Part shown: positions 1-58,847 of the stretch, one piece after another | Position numbering within the stretch: position 1 is the first letter of the stretch | Layout: every line of letters starts with the position of its first letter | NCBI RefSeq assembly: GCF_026230175.1 | Contig: NZ_CP104208.1 | Coordinates: forward strand, 1,116,001-1,180,000 | Source of the DNA: Desulfovibrio mangrovi | GTDB lineage: Bacteria > Desulfobacterota > Desulfovibrionia > Desulfovibrionales > Desulfovibrionaceae | DNA: 64,000 nucleotides | Reading direction: 5' to 3' | Made by a program: the position numbers and the translations under genes | The notes under the pieces: model-generated | What the model saw: the letters and a program-made list of their open reading frames with translations, nothing else | What the model was told of the DNA's origin: nothing | The model's database searches: none

Positions 1-216
1 AAAGGCAACGCGACTGCAGTTGCGTCCACCTGTGACCGGCTCTGGCTCGCCGTCTCCCAGAGCTCATGCATACTGATCGGACTCCCTGCCGTAATGGACA
101 GAGATCCTGTCACCCTTGCAGGACAAATACTTCTGGCCTTCTTTTTCCATACCGACTTTCAACGCCGGAATCCGGTACAATCATTACCTGAGACAAGACA
201 AGGATACATAGATTGA
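1..216 (+). CDS. C-terminal fragment of an unknown protein cut by the left edge
   Basis: Frame 1 is open from the first base to a TGA at 214-216 and encodes about 71 residues with coding-like composition and two hydrophobic stretches, ending in a polar Arg/Gln-rich tail. The stop overlaps the TTG start of the next gene (TTG 213-215, TGA 214-216), the usual sign of translational coupling. I do not recognise the family. A membrane protein C-terminus is plausible from the hydrophobicity, but too little is present to name it. Confidence 0.5.
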   Translation, partial: KGNATAVASTCDRLWLAVSQSSCILIGLPAVMDRDPVTLAGQILLAFFFHTDFQRRNPVQSLPETRQGYID

Positions 217-51715: not shown

Positions 51716-52225
51716 TTAACACTCCCCTTCGCGCAGAACTGCCTCATACTGCCCCTTCATCCGGTCGGAGAAACAGACAAAGATCACCCGCTCCGGAATC
51801 GGATTTACAGCCATAAACTCACGCACTTCACGAACTGCAATACGGCAGGCCTGATCAGCAGGAAAGCCGTACACGCCGCAGCTAATGGCGGGAAAAGCTA
51901 TGGAACGGACGCCGTTCTCCCTGGCAAGACGAAGGCACTGTCGATAGCAAGAAGCGAGAAGCTCCGGTTCTCCGGCGTTGCCATCCTTCCAGACAGGGCC
52001 GACAGTATGAATCACATGCCGCGCGGGCAAACGGTAGCCGCGCGTTATACGGGCTTCTCCCGTGGGACAGCCGCCAATCCCCCGACACTCCTCAAGCAAT
52101 TTAGGCCCGGCAGCCCTGTGAATGGCGCCGTCCACACCGCCTCCGCCAAGAAGGGAACTATTGGCAGCATTCACAATGGCAGCCACGGACAAAGTGGTAA
52201 TGTCACCCAACCAAACTTCCAGCAT
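51716..52225 (-). CDS. Macro domain protein (O-acetyl-ADP-ribose deacetylase-like)
   Basis: 169 residues forming one macro domain: [34 protein letters not shown], the [10 protein letters not shown] segment, and [14 protein letters not shown]. These are the ADP-ribose-binding loops of the YmdB/MacroD class, which hydrolyses O-acetyl-ADP-ribose and reverses mono-ADP-ribosylation. The ATG at 52225 follows GGGAGG by 7 nt; an upstream in-frame ATG is disfavoured. It stands alone; no toxin partner is adjacent. Confidence 0.93.
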
Positions 52226-52421
52226 ACCAACACCTCCCGACAATAACGAACTCGCTAGTCAGACGCTCTCTCTGTCTTCTGCATTCTCATATACGGCCTA
52301 AACCACGCATAATCGAATACAGATGATAACTGCATGGATGATAACTGCAAGAGGCCACAGTAAGAAGAAAACACACTGGCCGACAGCACCGGACTGAACA
52401 AACGTAATCTCATATCATATA

Positions 52422-52481: not shown

Positions 52482-53018
52482 TTACTTTGATCTGAGCAGA
52501 ACCACATCCTTGCCGTCGCGCTCCTTGGTGAGCACGTCAACCCGCTCGTTACGAGCCGTGTTCATGGTTTTACCCACATAGTCCGCATGAATGGGCAGTT
52601 CACGGTGCCCGCGATCGATCAGCACCATCAATTCCACACACTTCGGTCTGCCGAAATCAAGAATTCCCTCCAGAGCGGCACGAATGGTACGTCCCGTGAA
52701 CAACACGTCGTCCACAAGCAGGATGTTCTTGCCGTCAATATCGACAGGCAGCTCCGTGCGGTTGATCATGGGCTGCGACTCAAGAGAGGTCCAGTCGTCA
52801 CGATACAGGTTGATATCAAGGGCACCAAGCGGCAGGTCGCGTTTAAGCCTTTCGGCAAGAATGCCTCTGAGACGCGCAGCAAGATCAACGCCGCGTCGCT
52901 GGATACCTACCAGACACAGCTCCGTGCACTCACCGTGACGTTCAAGCACCTGATACGCCAGTCGCTCCAGCGTCCGGCGAATTTCCTCTTCCGACAGAAT
53001 CATCACATCATCAGACAT
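52482..53018 (-). CDS. pyrR: PyrR: pyr regulator / uracil phosphoribosyltransferase
   Basis: 178 residues of the type I phosphoribosyltransferase fold with the PRPP loop LLVDDVLFTGRTIRAAL and the early CLVGIQRRGVDLAARL. PyrR makes UMP from uracil and PRPP and, in many species, binds pyr mRNA to promote termination. The ATG at 53018 starts the family sequence; the frame upstream to 53072 is not conserved-looking. No pyr biosynthetic gene is adjacent, so RNA regulation, if any, acts elsewhere. Confidence 0.93.
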   Translation of the reverse strand: MSDDVMILSEEEIRRTLERLAYQVLERHGECTELCLVGIQRRGVDLAARLRGILAERLKRDLPLGALDINLYRDDWTSLESQPMINRTELPVDIDGKNILLVDDVLFTGRTIRAALEGILDFGRPKCVELMVLIDRGHRELPIHADYVGKTMNTARNERVDVLTKERDGKDVVLLRSK

Positions 53019-53160
53019 GCTGTTCCAACCTTGCATCGTCAAAAGTATCGCGATTCGTCCCGCAAATGTCATAAGGACGTAAGATCAACCTCATAGTCAA
53101 CTATTGTCTCTTATAGACAGATGCCGCCTGCAACGCAATGCTCATAATCCACAAGTCAGT

Positions 53161-53189
53161 TTGACATTTCTCCAACAATTTGATATATT
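53161..53189 (+). promoter_or_regulatory. Strong sigma-70 promoter for the first HesB-like gene
   Basis: TTGACA (exact consensus) is 17 nt from TATATT, about 72 nt before the ATG at 53262. Confidence 0.8.
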
Positions 53190-53261
53190 TATGAAATCTA
53201 TGGCTGATAAGAAAAAGTATTTATCCTACAAATAGCACCCTATGTGCACATTGGAGGCACC

Positions 53262-53585
53262 ATGGTTTCTCTTGAGCAAAGCGCCAAAGCAGAGCTTGAC
53301 GCTTACTTCTCCGATAAGGACAAAACTCCCATCAGAATATATCTCGCTCCGGGCGGATGCAGCGGCCCCCGTCTGGCTCTTGCCCTTGATGAGCCGAATG
53401 ACGACGACGCCACCACCGAAACCGGCGGCTACACCTTTGCCATCCACAAGGACCTGTTCGAACAGGTGCAGGGCGTAACCATCTCCGTTAGCTGTGGTGG
53501 ATTCTCCGTCATTCCCCAAGTACCCCTGCCCAGCATGGGCGGCGGCTGCAGCGGATGCGGCTCCTCTTCATCCTGCTGCTCATAA
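53262..53585 (+). CDS. HesB/IscA-like protein, cysteine form
   Basis: 107 residues. It has the A-type core with LAPGGCSGPRLALALDEPND, placing the first conserved Cys at about residue 33, and a second Cys in VSCGGFSVIP. The Gly/Ser/Cys-rich tail GGGCSGCGSSSSCC differs from the CGCGESF tail of classical IscA. A-type proteins carry Fe-S clusters or iron; the role of this variant is unknown. The ATG follows GGAGG. It has its own strong promoter and terminator and is followed by a Sec-containing paralog. Confidence 0.88.
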   Translation: MVSLEQSAKAELDAYFSDKDKTPIRIYLAPGGCSGPRLALALDEPNDDDATTETGGYTFAIHKDLFEQVQGVTISVSCGGFSVIPQVPLPSMGGGCSGCGSSSSCCS

Positions 53586-53607
53586 TCATCCCGACATTGA
53601 ACAAACT

Positions 53608-53634
53608 AACGGCCCCCTCGGGCCGTTTTTTTAT
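53608..53634 (+). terminator. Rho-independent terminator after the first HesB-like gene
   Basis: AACGGCCC and GGGCCGTT with loop CCTC, followed by a T-run. Confidence 0.88.
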
Positions 53635-53737
53635 CCTTAAAAAAATACCCGAAATCAAACTAGGAGCAATTCCTAACTAAACCTACAAGTTATACACCTT
53701 ATCTAGTTGTGAAATCTATAACTATAGGGCCAATCCA

Positions 53738-53766
53738 TTGACAATCCCTTGGGGTGTACGTACTTG
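53738..53766 (+). promoter_or_regulatory. Candidate promoter for the HesB-like selenoprotein gene
   Basis: A perfect TTGACA (53738-53743) is 17 nt from TACTTG, a weak -10 that overlaps the palindromic GTACGTAC/GTACTTGTAC sequence. The ATG lies about 30 nt further on. Confidence 0.45.
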
Positions 53767-53795
53767 TACCTCTCACACCCAAGCGGAGGAAAGCA

Positions 53796-54116
53796 ATGTT
53801 TACACTGACCGATAGCGCCCATAAAGAACTTGCGGCGTATTTCGCGGATAAGGAAAAGTCCGGCATTCGCATCTATCTTGCTCCTGGTGGCTGAAGCGGC
53901 CCCCGACTGGCATTGGCTCTGGATGAGCCAAACGATGACGATACCGTATTTACCGAAAAAGAATTCACCTTTGCCATCAACAGCGCCCTGCTTGCTCAGA
54001 CCGGCGCTATCAAGATCGACCTGTCCTACATGGGCTTCTCCGTCGAATCTGCCAATCCCCTGCCTGGTGGCGGCTCTTCCTGTGGCGGTTGCTCCAGCGC
54101 GGGCAGCTGCGGTTAG
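53796..54116 (+). CDS. HesB/IscA-like selenoprotein (in-frame TGA read as selenocysteine)
   Basis: 106 residues if the TGA at 53892-53894 is read as Sec33. The ATG follows GCGGAGGAAA. Before the TGA the frame gives IYLAPGG; after it comes SGPRLALALDEPNDDD, so the TGA sits exactly at the conserved Cys of the upstream paralog (GGCSGP). The frame then continues to a Cys-rich tail (SCGGCSSAGSCG) and TAG. HesB-like proteins are a known bacterial selenoprotein family. A SECIS-like hairpin follows the TGA. Without Sec insertion only 32 residues would be made. Likely role: metal or redox handling linked to Fe-S metabolism. Confidence 0.88.
53913..53931 (+). promoter_or_regulatory. Bacterial SECIS hairpin inside the selenoprotein gene
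   Basis: TTGGCTC and GAGCCAA form a perfect 7-bp stem with the 5-nt loop TGGAT, which has the G residues expected for SelB binding. The loop begins 25 nt after the TGA, inside the 16-37 nt range known for bacterial SECIS elements. The Cys paralog encodes nearly the same residues with other codons and cannot form this stem. Confidence 0.85.
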
Positions 54117-54141
54117 TTCCGCTCCTGAACAAGGATATTAT

Positions 54142-54176
54142 AAAAGCGGCCTTCGCATGAAGGCCGCTTTTTTGTT
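54142..54176 (+). terminator. Rho-independent terminator after the selenoprotein gene
   Basis: AAAGCGGCCTTC/GAAGGCCGCTTT stem with a 4-nt loop and a T-run, about 26 nt after the TAG. Confidence 0.92.
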
Positions 54177-54334
54177 TACCGATCAAGACGCAGAGCCATA
54201 TTTCTTCTTCACGAAAAGGATACGCATTTGCTTTCAGTGTGTCCTTCACGCGCTGAGCTACGCGGGGATCTACAGCGATGTGCCCCTCCCCTTTCAGCAA
54301 CATTCCATCGCGGCTGCATCATGTTTTAAAACCC

Positions 54335-54368
54335 AAAAAGAACCCCGCACCATTTAGGTACGGGGTTC
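54335..54368 (-). terminator. Rho-independent terminator after the unknown membrane protein gene
   Basis: On the minus strand GAACCCCG/CGGGGTTC with inner pairing (GTACC/GGTGC-like) is followed by TTTTTGGG, about 25 nt beyond the stop at 54392. Confidence 0.8.
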
Positions 54369-54391
54369 AGTATTTCCGGGAACCAGAACCA

Positions 54392-55216
54392 CTATTCGTC
54401 AATAACGGTCGGTCCAGCAGGAAGACTCCGCGGCACCTGACTACCCTTGGAGGCTGAACTCACGGGAAGAGCTTCAATGGTCTTGCCCGCTACCTCTCCG
54501 CCTGCGGTAAGCATGCGGCCATCAGCTGTTATGGCTGTTTTTCCGTCGATGATGGCGATACCGGTCTTTTCAAGCACCTCGCGGCGGAAGGCATACTCTT
54601 CAGCCATCTTGCGGGTGCGATACATAAGCCACAGCTTGGCAATGTAGCTGACAAGCCATGCGGCAAACAGGCCCAACCCAGCCCACAGGGCGAGTTCCGC
54701 AGCAGTTTCTCCCAGCTTGAGCAGGAAGTTCATCACCACGTCCATGTTGTAAAGCACAAGCCCCACAAGCAGCAGACCGGCAAGCATGATGATGGTGGGC
54801 ATTCCCTGTACAAGGCTGACCCAGCGCTTCATCTTTTCGGGCATCACTTCATTGGCAGCCGCAGTAAACTCCGGATCGCCCTGAATTATGCGCGAAAAGC
54901 CCATGCCGATTATCTGAATGATGAACATGACCCCTACCGGAGCCAGAAACACGGAGACAAGATACGCCTTCCAGGGGAAGCTGTACTCCATGGTTCCGTC
55001 GGGCAGGGTCTGCATATTGGTAACACCGTGCAGAATGGCCACCACCGTGACCACAAACTCCACAATAATGACGCCCAGAGCAATGTAGGCAAGCAGGGAC
55101 TTTCGCTCTTTTTCATTGAGCATGGCTCCCAGACCACCGGGACCAGCCCCCTTGAAAGCGGCGCTTGCGCTGCCTGCTTCTTCACGGGCTTCCTGCTGCA
55201 TGTCCTTTTCGCTCAT
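54392..55216 (-). CDS. Multi-span membrane protein of unknown function
   Basis: 274 residues from the ATG at 55216 (AAGGAATT lies upstream; an in-frame ATG at 55246 is also possible). A soluble Gly/Ala-rich N-terminus is followed by about four membrane helices (around 40-65, 80-105, 140-160, 175-205). The C-terminal ~75-residue cytoplasmic region contains the strand-like GIAIIDGKTAITADGRMLTAGG and a Ser/Pro-rich end. I do not recognise the family. It is monocistronic, with its own terminator. Confidence 0.75.
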   Translation of the reverse strand: MSEKDMQQEAREEAGSASAAFKGAGPGGLGAMLNEKERKSLLAYIALGVIIVEFVVTVVAILHGVTNMQTLPDGTMEYSFPWKAYLVSVFLAPVGVMFIIQIIGMGFSRIIQGDPEFTAAANEVMPEKMKRWVSLVQGMPTIIMLAGLLLVGLVLYNMDVVMNFLLKLGETAAELALWAGLGLFAAWLVSYIAKLWLMYRTRKMAEEYAFRREVLEKTGIAIIDGKTAITADGRMLTAGGEVAGKTIEALPVSSASKGSQVPRSLPAGPTVIDE

Positions 55217-55853: not shown

Positions 55854-56519
55854 TTAGTCGACCACAAACACGATGAGGTCGGTGGGACCATGCACGCCGA
55901 ACTGCAGAATCAGTTCGATATCCGCGGTCTTGGAGGGACCGGAGATAAGCAGTGCGTTGGTGGGAGCCTTGGCATTCCAGTCAAGAGCTTCGATAGCCTC
56001 GGCAAAGGAAGTCCAGATTTTGTCCGCCTTGACCACCGCAAAGTGTACGGGGGGAACAAGAGACAGCAGGCGCGGCTCTTCGGGAGAAGGCCACAGCACC
56101 ATGGCTGCAGATTCGGCAATGCCACCCATGGTGGTGGTGATGCCTGCGGATGCTTCGAACAGTTCATCACGGAACTCTTCGATGTCTGCGGTCCACGGCA
56201 CCAGAGGCGCGATATCCTTCTGGCCCTTCCATGCGGCTTCCAGCTTCTTGGAGATCTCGGTGTTCTGGCCGTACACAAGATTCTTAAGGCCGCGCTCCTT
56301 CATGATTTCCTGAAGCTTGCCAACCCACTCGTCCCCCTTCACCTGATGCACTTCAGTGCGCATGGCGCTCATCAGTTCCACAAAGCGGGCTACACGTGCG
56401 GCTTTATCTTCAATGGGAGCAGGAACCCACTTCTCCGCAACGGGAGCATAGGATGCTCCGGCAATGCTGGAGGCGTGGAGACGGGCGAAAATGTTTTCGC
56501 GGGCGCTAGTATTACTCAT
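55854..56519 (-). CDS. lutC: Lactate utilization protein C (LUD domain)
   Basis: 221 residues with a single LUD domain: AESAAMVLWPSPEEPRLLS, PPVHFAVVKADKI and the terminal LISGPSKTADIE, then QFGVHGPTDLIVFVV. LutC is the third subunit of the LutABC iron-sulfur L-lactate dehydrogenase complex that oxidises lactate to pyruvate. It overlaps the lutB end by 8 nt, so the two are translationally coupled. Last gene of the operon; a strong terminator follows. Confidence 0.93.
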   Translation of the reverse strand: MSNTSARENIFARLHASSIAGASYAPVAEKWVPAPIEDKAARVARFVELMSAMRTEVHQVKGDEWVGKLQEIMKERGLKNLVYGQNTEISKKLEAAWKGQKDIAPLVPWTADIEEFRDELFEASAGITTTMGGIAESAAMVLWPSPEEPRLLSLVPPVHFAVVKADKIWTSFAEAIEALDWNAKAPTNALLISGPSKTADIELILQFGVHGPTDLIVFVVD

Positions 56520-57942
56520 TGCGGATACCCTCTTTCTTCGCCAGATCCTTCAGGCTCTGACGGGCGAACTTGGGAGAAGTGCGGACACTGGTCCACGCCT
56601 TCAAAGGACCAACCTTGGGCAGCATGTTACCGAACAGCTGCACGCCGAGAAGCATGAGCTTGTTGCAGGTAGCATTGACCTGGGTGAGCTTCCAGCCCTT
56701 CCAGACAATCGTCTCGACCAGGCTCTTCTTGAAGCCGTGGCCCTTGACGACGCCCTCGCCATCCATGTCGTAGCTTTCGTCTCGCAGGCGGCGGATAAGG
56801 TTGGGAATCGGAATCATGACCGGACATACTTCTTCACAGGCGTTACACAGGGAAGAAGCGGTGGGCAGGCTGCCCTTCTTGTCCAGACCTTCCACCTGCG
56901 GCATCAGTATTTCACCGATGGGGCCGGGATAGGTGGAACCGTATGCGTGACCGCCGATACGGGTGTAAACGGGGCAGTGGTTCAGACAGGTACCGCAGCG
57001 GATGCACTGCAGAGTCTGACGCAGCTGCTTGTCTGCAAGAATCTTGGAACGGCCATTGTCCAGAATGATGAGGTGAACTTCCTTGGGGCCGTCCTTTTCG
57101 CCAGCCTTGCGGGGGCCCTTGATCATGTTGAAATAGGTGGTGATGCGCTGGCCGGTGGCGGAACCGCACAGCAGGCGGTACAGCGGAGGAATGTCTTCCA
57201 GCTTCTCAACAACCTTTTCAAGACCCATCAGGGCAACATGCACGGGCGGCACGGCGGTACACATACGACCGTTGCCTTCGTTTTCCACCAGACAAAGGGT
57301 ACCGGACTCGGCGATGGCGAAGTTGACGCCGGAAAGACCGATGTCGGCAGTGCGGTAGTGTTCACGCAGCTTGTGGCGGGCAATGGCCAGCAGCTCGGAG
57401 GTGTCTTCGGTGTAGGAAACGCCGGGAATGTTGTCGGCAAAGATCTGGGCGATCTGCTTGCGGTTCTTGTGTACCGCGGGAACGATGATGTGGGACGGAG
57501 GCTCGTTGTTCAGCTGAATGATGTATTCGCCGAGGTCGGTTTCCAGAGGCAGCTTGCCCTGATCTTCGAGGAACTTGTTCAGGTGCATTTCCTCGGACAC
57601 CATGGACTTGCCCTTCACCATCTTGTGGGCGCTGTGCTTTTCCATGAGGTCGAGCACAATATTGTTGGCTTCGTCCACAGTTTCGGCCCAGTGAACGATG
57701 ATGCCATTTTCCTTGCACTTGGCTTCGAGCTGTTCAAGCAGTTGAGGCAGCTTGGTCAGCACGTTGCGCTTCAGGCCGTTGCCAACCTTGCGCAGGTGCA
57801 TGGTTTCTTCAGGGTCGGAGAAAACTGCCAGACGCTTGCCGCGCAGAGTATCGGTAGCAAACTTGAAGTTGGCACGAAGCTGCTTGTCTGCCAGCGCGTC
57901 GGTGATGCTCTTCTTGAAATTGAATTTTGCGTTGCTAGCCAT
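56512..57942 (-). CDS. lutB: Lactate utilization protein B (LUD + two 4Fe-4S clusters)
   Basis: 476 residues. The N-terminal LUD domain (about 60-300, with FAIAESGTLCLVENEGNGR and PPVHVALMGLEK) is followed by a ferredoxin-like part with cysteine motifs CIRCGTCLNHCP and CNACEEVCP (about 310-385), and a helical C-terminus. It passes electrons from lactate oxidation through Fe-S clusters. The ATG at 57942 has a GGAG site; the frame is open nine codons further. It overlaps both lutA and lutC by 8 nt. Confidence 0.95.
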   Translation of the reverse strand: MASNAKFNFKKSITDALADKQLRANFKFATDTLRGKRLAVFSDPEETMHLRKVGNGLKRNVLTKLPQLLEQLEAKCKENGIIVHWAETVDEANNIVLDLMEKHSAHKMVKGKSMVSEEMHLNKFLEDQGKLPLETDLGEYIIQLNNEPPSHIIVPAVHKNRKQIAQIFADNIPGVSYTEDTSELLAIARHKLREHYRTADIGLSGVNFAIAESGTLCLVENEGNGRMCTAVPPVHVALMGLEKVVEKLEDIPPLYRLLCGSATGQRITTYFNMIKGPRKAGEKDGPKEVHLIILDNGRSKILADKQLRQTLQCIRCGTCLNHCPVYTRIGGHAYGSTYPGPIGEILMPQVEGLDKKGSLPTASSLCNACEEVCPVMIPIPNLIRRLRDESYDMDGEGVVKGHGFKKSLVETIVWKGWKLTQVNATCNKLMLLGVQLFGNMLPKVGPLKAWTSVRTSPKFARQSLKDLAKKEGIRNE

Positions 57943-58687
57943 TGATGCGCTCCAAAATGAATTCAGCAATGTGCTGGCCTTCGATGGCTACTTTTTCTTT
58001 ACCCATGTGACCGGTGATATTCATCATGCAACCGCAGTCACCAGTAAGGAACTTCTTGGTGCCGGTGTTCTTGATGTCTTCAACCTTGTCATGGACCATG
58101 GCCGCAGAGATTTCGGGCTGCTTGATGGAGAAGGTACCACCGAAGCCGCAGCATTCATGCTCACGCTCAATCTCAACGAGTTCGACATTCTTGAGCTGAC
58201 GGATAAGGGCCTTGGAATCATCAGTGCAGCCCATTTCGCGACGTGCGTGGCAGGAAGAATGCCAGGTCAGCTTAACGGGAGAGCCCTTGTCGGTGTACTG
58301 GGCCTTGAGCTCGTTGTTCAGGTAGGAAGTGAGTTCGTGCACGCGGTCACAGAACTTCTTCACTTCGTAGTATTCCGGATCATCCTTGAAGAGTTCGAGA
58401 TAGTGATACTTCATCATGCCGGCACAGGAACCGGAAGGCACGATGATGGGATAGTTGTTACCGGAAAAAACCTGAACCTGCTTCCAGGCTACATCCTTTG
58501 CTTCCTGACGGAAGCCGGAGTTATAAGCAGGCTGACCGCAGCAACCCTGTTCCTGCGGGAAAATGACTTCCACGCCTTCGCGCTGCAGCAACTTGATACC
58601 GGCCATACCAGCCTTGGGATAGGCCATATCCACAAGACAGGTACCAAAATAGTAAACTGTTTTCACTTTTGCTGGATTGTTACCCAT
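57935..58687 (-). CDS. lutA: Lactate utilization protein A (CCG-motif Fe-S oxidoreductase)
   Basis: 250 residues with two CCG domains: GCCGQPAYNSG (about residue 50) with SGSCAGMM, and ECCGFGGTFSIKQPEIS (about 195) with TGDCGCMMNI. These cysteine-rich motifs hold non-cubane or 4Fe-4S clusters in LutA and in heterodisulfide-reductase-like subunits. It is the first gene of lutABC. The ATG at 58687 follows GAGAGGAA. Lactate oxidation is central to energy supply in sulfate reducers, so this operon is likely active in growth on lactate. Confidence 0.94.
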   Translation of the reverse strand: MGNNPAKVKTVYYFGTCLVDMAYPKAGMAGIKLLQREGVEVIFPQEQGCCGQPAYNSGFRQEAKDVAWKQVQVFSGNNYPIIVPSGSCAGMMKYHYLELFKDDPEYYEVKKFCDRVHELTSYLNNELKAQYTDKGSPVKLTWHSSCHARREMGCTDDSKALIRQLKNVELVEIEREHECCGFGGTFSIKQPEISAAMVHDKVEDIKNTGTKKFLTGDCGCMMNITGHMGKEKVAIEGQHIAEFILERING

Positions 58688-58847
58688 AGTTCCTCTCGCT
58701 TCGTTAATCGGACCCGGCATTGAAGTGGCAATACCGACCCCTGCTGATATGTCCCGTTAGCCATCGGGCAAACCCCATAAGCCTGATGAGGGACATGTGA
58801 CGGACTTAGAGATATAACATGGTTACACGAGAATAGTCGACATCCGG

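Follow-up and report, generated by a model that had tools for sequence, protein, structure and literature searches.

The window, as we call the whole 64,000-nucleotide stretch of Desulfovibrio mangrovi DNA analyzed here, very probably contains a real selenoprotein gene from a sulfate-reducing bacterium, with one stop codon translated as selenocysteine. Our best overall explanation, which we hold at a probability of about 0.93, is a HesB/IscA-like selenoprotein with selenocysteine at residue 33 (Sec33), decoded via SelB and a hairpin, with iron-sulfur (Fe-S) cluster carriage as the likeliest role. SelB with Sec-tRNA would read the UGA as Sec33, guided by the hairpin that follows it. Coordinates of the features are collected in Table 1.

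Table 1. Predicted features of the Sec gene, its Cys neighbor and their flanks (positions in the window).
Feature	Position	Strand	Basis
HesB/IscA-like selenoprotein gene, 106 residues with Sec33, stop TAG	53796..54116	+	translation and family match
In-frame TGA, residue 33, aligned with the first conserved Cys of IscA-type proteins	53892..53894	+	alignment
SECIS-type hairpin, 7-bp stem, loop UGGAU, loop 25 nt after UGA	53913..53931	+	fold, conservation, bSECIS constraints
Tandem Cys paralog, TGC at the Sec position, without SECIS-type hairpin by the same rule	53262..53585	+	
Sigma-70-like promoter match upstream of the Cys paralog, TTGACA-17-TATATT, 11/12	53161..53189	+	sigma-70 scan
Terminator-like hairpin and T-run between the two genes	53608..53627	+	terminator scan
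Promoter-like element before the Sec gene, TTGACA-17-TACTTG	53738..53766	+	pattern recurs upstream of relatives
Terminator-like hairpin and T-run after the Sec gene	54142..54171	+	terminator scan

Family membership and likely role

Translation gave one internal TGA in the 106-residue frame and confirmed the coordinates of the preliminary description, which had followed this frame through the TGA to the TAG. The same description had matched the TGA to a conserved Cys of a paralog starting 534 nt upstream, and GG-TGC-SGP is indeed found at the matching site in the alignment. The Sec protein and this Cys paralog are 57% identical.

Against the NCBIfam model NF038090 (IscA_HesB_Se; cut-off 85), the Sec protein scored 115.5 bits and passes, and the Cys paralog scored 97.3 bits; none of 14 control genomes had a match over the cut-off. 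The Sec protein also passes Pfam PF01521 (Fe-S_biosyn; 31.3 bits, gathering score 26.3), for which the Cys paralog lies slightly under the gathering score at 24.4 bits. Scores of the Sec protein were under the cut-offs of TIGR00049 (iron-sulfur cluster assembly accessory protein; 41.5 bits, cut-off 58.8) and, by far, of the IscA equivalog TIGR02011 (32.6 bits, cut-off 150.6), and it passes neither the ErpA nor the SufA equivalog model. TIGR01911 (HesB_rel_seleno) is a related model with the motif UxGP (PMC13188914), present in the window protein as USGP; we do not assign the Sec protein to it since 45.4 bits is under the cut-off of 66.35.

Solved structures matched by the Sec protein are AQ_1857 (1nwb), E. 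coli IscA (yfhF, 1r94; two entries) and HI1723. Similarity to these A-type proteins is weak (best E 5.8e-6), and in the alignment Sec33 falls on the Cys of their G-C-S-G motif (SGCSG in E. coli IscA 1r94). The window protein has the domain and the first Cys position in common with E. coli IscA and AQ_1857, but differs from them in carrying Sec for Cys and in the spacing of the tail Cys. In a comparison of 11 loci, from which the window's own records were possibly left out, the nearest named relatives by Sec protein were Halodesulfovibrio sp. SZUA-473 (94%), H. spirochaetisodalis (81%) and Halodesulfovibrio sp. N3 (79%), which suggests a Halodesulfovibrio-like host.

NF038090 was matched in at least 139 of 149 genomes of relatives, the host genome included (at least 132 over the cut-off), and in at least 220 of 395 genomes of the phylum (at least 168 over the cut-off), two sets that overlap in some genomes. 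We analyzed 119 loci, consisting of the window, 58 among the matches listed and 60 fetched stretches, nearly all of the latter chosen for a listed TGA copy. After two profile matches with scores near 0 were dropped from 175, the 173 kept copies have at one aligned codon TGA in 116 cases, Cys in 51 (46 TGC, 5 TGT) and neither in 6; the 116:51 ratio of TGA to Cys is not a frequency because the loci were mostly chosen for a TGA copy.

Our finding is not new in kind. As the preliminary description recognized, HesB-like proteins are an established selenoprotein family. Its known members include Desulfovibrio proteins (NCBIfam NF038090; PMC1794560, PMC1914089). To describe the gene as hidden, as was done there, is an overstatement because NCBIfam models the family and publications from 2006-2007 already include Desulfovibrio members; the window gene is a sound additional member. 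In the text available from these sources, the selenoproteins listed for D. vulgaris and for D. desulfuricans include HesB-like ones (PMC1794560), and DVU_1382 of D. vulgaris is among the TGA HesB genes (PMC1914089). The window protein belongs by score to the same family as such DVU_1382-type proteins, likened to DVU_1382 itself via family only, and differs from the listed Desulfovibrio cases in its organism and in the adjoining Cys paralog. A legend in PMC1794560 names a D. hafniense HesB-like gene, the figure being on SECIS-like structures with Cys codons. The family is also listed in PMC13188914 and PMC9312934, and HesB-like selenoproteins were not found in the available portions of PMC2682760 and PMC11588087.

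The product would be a relative of A-type Fe-S carriers in which a selenolate replaces the first ligand-type Cys and the tail is rich in Cys and Gly. In E. coli IscA, the first Cys is a cluster ligand and the ligand pattern comprises three Cys, C...CxC. The window protein has Sec at the first position and CGGC in its tail, and tails of the TGA copies contain CxC in 29/116 and CxxC in 51/116; this variable spacing and the weak similarity to solved A-type proteins count against a carrier role. From family membership only, we infer an A-type Fe-S carrier with a selenolate ligand. In an anaerobic sulfate reducer, its likeliest role would be to bind and pass on an Fe-S cluster or the iron or sulfur needed for one, and selenium would tune ligand strength or redox stability.

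Another possibility, which we consider rather unlikely, is that the protein acts as a selenium-based thiol oxidoreductase or binds a metal or metalloid and is not an Fe-S carrier. Sec proteins are often redox enzymes (PMC13188914), and three or more tail Cys, found in 114 of the 116 TGA copies, would suit such activities. A Methanococcus maripaludis mutant in a HesB-like selenoprotein gene was moreover unimpaired in nitrogen fixation, according to an unpublished remark in PMC11097638. These points are set against the domain family and the closest solved structures, which are of the IscA type and favor an Fe-S carrier. PMC11097638 traces the identification of the M. maripaludis protein to mutagenesis and 75Se labelling and says of its function that it "is not clear". 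This archaeal protein is likened to the window protein by description, and bacterial and archaeal SECIS elements differ (PMC13188914).

Decoding of the in-frame TGA

Decoding with Sec33, as proposed in the preliminary description, is strongly supported at the level of sequence by the Sec machinery of the genome, the NF038090 match, the TGA column of the alignment and the placed hairpin. The search for selA, selB, selC and selD that had been suggested found all four in the host genome, a single contig of 3.95 Mb, including selB and selC, whose absence would have spoken against Sec. Profile searches gave 364 bits for selB (cut-off 242), 616 bits for selA, 344 bits for selD and 78.6 bits for tRNA-Sec (cut-off 47), the last also called by ARAGORN as tRNA-SeC with anticodon tca (UCA). 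Among the 14 control genomes, scores over the cut-off were obtained for selB in 2, tRNA-Sec in 5, selA in 1 and selD in 2. The selD gene at G000:C1:1381215-1382147 (locus L020) is a TGA gene too: a single internal TGA lies within the sequence GUAAK.

The hairpin described earlier, with a 7-bp stem and loop TGGAT, was located at the position given in Table 1. It has the sequence TTGGCTC / TGGAT / GAGCCAA and starts 18 nt after the TGA. Published bSECIS constraints are a loop of 3-9 nt, a stem of 4-16 bp, a G in the first two loop positions, a distance of 16-37 nt from the UGA and a minimum free energy of -7.5 kcal/mol or lower (PMC13188914); the window hairpin has a 5-nt loop, a 7-bp stem, G at loop position 2, a distance of 25 nt and -10.1 kcal/mol. 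This energy was reached by 0/200 synonymous codon shuffles. The whole 54-nt fold is not exceptional relative to dinucleotide shuffles (z = -1.19, 26/200 as good), so the evidence consists of the placed hairpin and its conservation. The 10 matches with E up to 5 in an Rfam scan of 52500-54800 all stayed below their cut-offs.

To compare the copies, we searched the 48 nt that follow the site for hairpins whose first two loop positions include G, leaving out the six rows with neither Sec nor Cys (2 Ser, 1 Glu, 1 Ala, 1 Asp, 1 gap). A 5-nt loop starting exactly 25 nt after the TGA is present in 115/116 TGA copies, as UGGAU (94), UGGAC (20) or UGGCU (1). Mean hairpin energy in the TGA copies is -8.5 kcal/mol versus -1.4 in synonymous shuffles, with 99/116 at p <= 0.05 and the other 17 failing to beat 95% of their own codon shuffles; the Cys copies average -1.5 versus -1.2 in shuffles, with 5/51 at p <= 0.05. 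By the same rule, some hairpin of -3 kcal/mol or better occurs in 10/51 Cys copies. The hairpin alone reaches -7.5 kcal/mol in 79/116 TGA copies and falls short in 37. All 116 reach it with the 48-nt fold, a measure that hardly discriminates because codon shuffles average -11.7 and Cys copies -14.5.

Covariation in the stem (0.176 versus 0.093 in shuffles) was reached by 0/500 shuffles, although part of this signal is not independent because the stem is also coding sequence and the rows share ancestry. One covarying pair is GC in 90 rows, UA in 20, AU in 2 and GU in 1. Slid versions of the stem score 0 to 0.090. Cells changed on both sides number 31 and 30 in the versions slid by +1 and +2 versus 25 in the true stem, and cells pairing make up 51% and 40% versus 90.5%. 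Codons 34-46 of the Sec gene show 1 synonymous and 0 nonsynonymous changes relative to each of three close congeners, versus 6, 8 and 6 synonymous changes in the Cys copies; relative to two more distant congeners they show 3 and 3 synonymous and 0 nonsynonymous changes, versus 9 and 9 synonymous in the Cys copies. So strictly placed a SECIS hairpin is usable as a reference for the HesB-like selenoprotein family.

Sec-geometry hairpins are found in one of the 51 Cys copies, that of locus L022 (TGT, -8.5), which looks like a recent Sec-to-Cys change. The Cys copies of L041 and L106 have strong 8-bp hairpins (-9.6 and -9.3) with the loop one nucleotide further, at 26 nt, which may be shifted remnants of such changes. 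Locus L131 has three tandem copies, two of them with TGA; its second TGA copy is very divergent, lacks the placed hairpin and has the longest branch in the tree.

A pseudogene or a sequencing error, with the TGA as a real stop or a miscalled TGC or TGT, would fit the neighboring gene having TGC where the TGA stands. Yet the 116 copies with TGA at this codon span many genera of the phylum, the placed hairpin accompanies the TGA, and few nonsynonymous changes follow the TGA among close congeners: synonymous to nonsynonymous codon changes are 10:4, 19:7 and 13:5 for three of these, and 19:17 and 20:15 for two more distant ones. A miscalled base, which the preliminary description had named as grounds for rejecting Sec, is excluded in practice because a TGA copy is present in each of ten same-genus genomes searched (G000-G009, among the matches listed). 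In practice, conservation across the copies already refutes this explanation.

It is equally improbable that the TGA is a genuine stop followed by an independent frame. Such a frame is mechanically present (TTG, 53913-54116, 67 aa), but it would lack the N-terminal third of the domain and begin at the first codon of the hairpin, and selection also acts on the 32 codons ahead of the TGA (1, 1 and 1 nonsynonymous changes relative to three congeners). Insertion of Trp or Cys as an ordinary amino acid at the TGA, through a suppressor or general reassignment and without selenium, has next to no probability either, as the final stop is also TGA in 44/116 TGA copies, the genome has tRNA-Sec and SelB, and the SECIS-type hairpin would be purposeless. 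In addition to the column read here as Sec, the aligned set of 119 loci contains no second in-frame TGA within the first 97 residues of any copy. The residue after Sec is Ala, Gly or Arg in many Sec copies.

The tandem pair and its surroundings

Sampling of the same family (f1) covered 72 loci, of which 43 have both Sec and Cys copies, 25 Sec only and 4 Cys only; outside this family both occur in 4/47 loci. These are counts of loci and not of genomes, and a partner can be missed where contigs or flanks are short. The 54 gaps between neighboring copies have a median of 157.5 nt, and 39 contain a run of five T. Sec precedes Cys in 35 gaps and Cys precedes Sec, as in the window, in 12.

On a quick tree, 22 changes of the Sec and Cys labels are required; from the starred branches alone, the minimum is 11 for the Sec label and 10 for the Cys label. 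The tree was built on 95 columns, has long branches and does not distinguish gain from loss. The partner is the nearest Sec row in 13/47 pairs. By this tree, the Sec and Cys kinds do not form two old clades, and the number of Cys-label changes forced on starred branches points to repeated duplication, conversion or loss. Loci L035, L039 and L045 each have, after the Sec and Cys copies, a third tandem paralog with Glu, Ala or Asp at the site, so that the first ligand is absent. At L083 and L086, an upstream paralog has Ser at the Sec/Cys site and no Cys-rich tail.

The upstream Cys paralog would be a related isoform, perhaps a selenium-independent counterpart. Tentatively, the tandem genes could represent a two-isoform Fe-S carrier system kept in Desulfovibrionaceae-type bacteria, with the Sec protein as the selenolate-ligated carrier and the Cys protein as its replacement under selenium shortage or its heterodimer partner. 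A title-level search found no paper title naming a tandem Sec/Cys arrangement, which does not imply absence from print; the pair appears less documented than HesB-like selenoproteins themselves. Such pairs provide a natural setting in which selenium and sulfur can be compared at one site within a single cell.

The Cys and Sec genes are probably transcribed separately because a terminator-like hairpin lies between them and a recurrent element precedes the Sec gene; the promoter match of the Cys gene is at chance level. Terminator-like sites number 5 in 1.6 kb versus 1.7 expected from shuffles, and sigma-70 promoter-like sites 2 versus 1.7 expected by chance. The element before the Sec gene is not listed by the sigma-70 scan. 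It consists of TTGACA(AA) followed about 17 nt on by TAYYT, some 60 nt before the start codon, and its -10 part is unlike TATAAT. The pattern TTGACN-15..19-TANYT was found upstream of 61/116 Sec genes (versus 0.55 in shuffled sequence) and 13/50 Cys genes (versus 0.2). Genome-wide, TTGACA-17-TACYT has 7 matches and the reversed pattern 0; the frames downstream of these matches share no common theme by eye, and we claim no regulon. A putative regulatory 5'-UTR hairpin before the Sec gene (CTTGGGGTGT...CACACCCAAG) was dropped since, in ten same-genus rows among the matches listed, it was clear by eye only in the window and L101.

The ORF at window positions 51716-52243 (-) is by eye presumably a macro-domain protein, and the three ORFs at 55854-58720 (-) resemble by eye what we take to be an LldEFG-type lactate utilisation operon.
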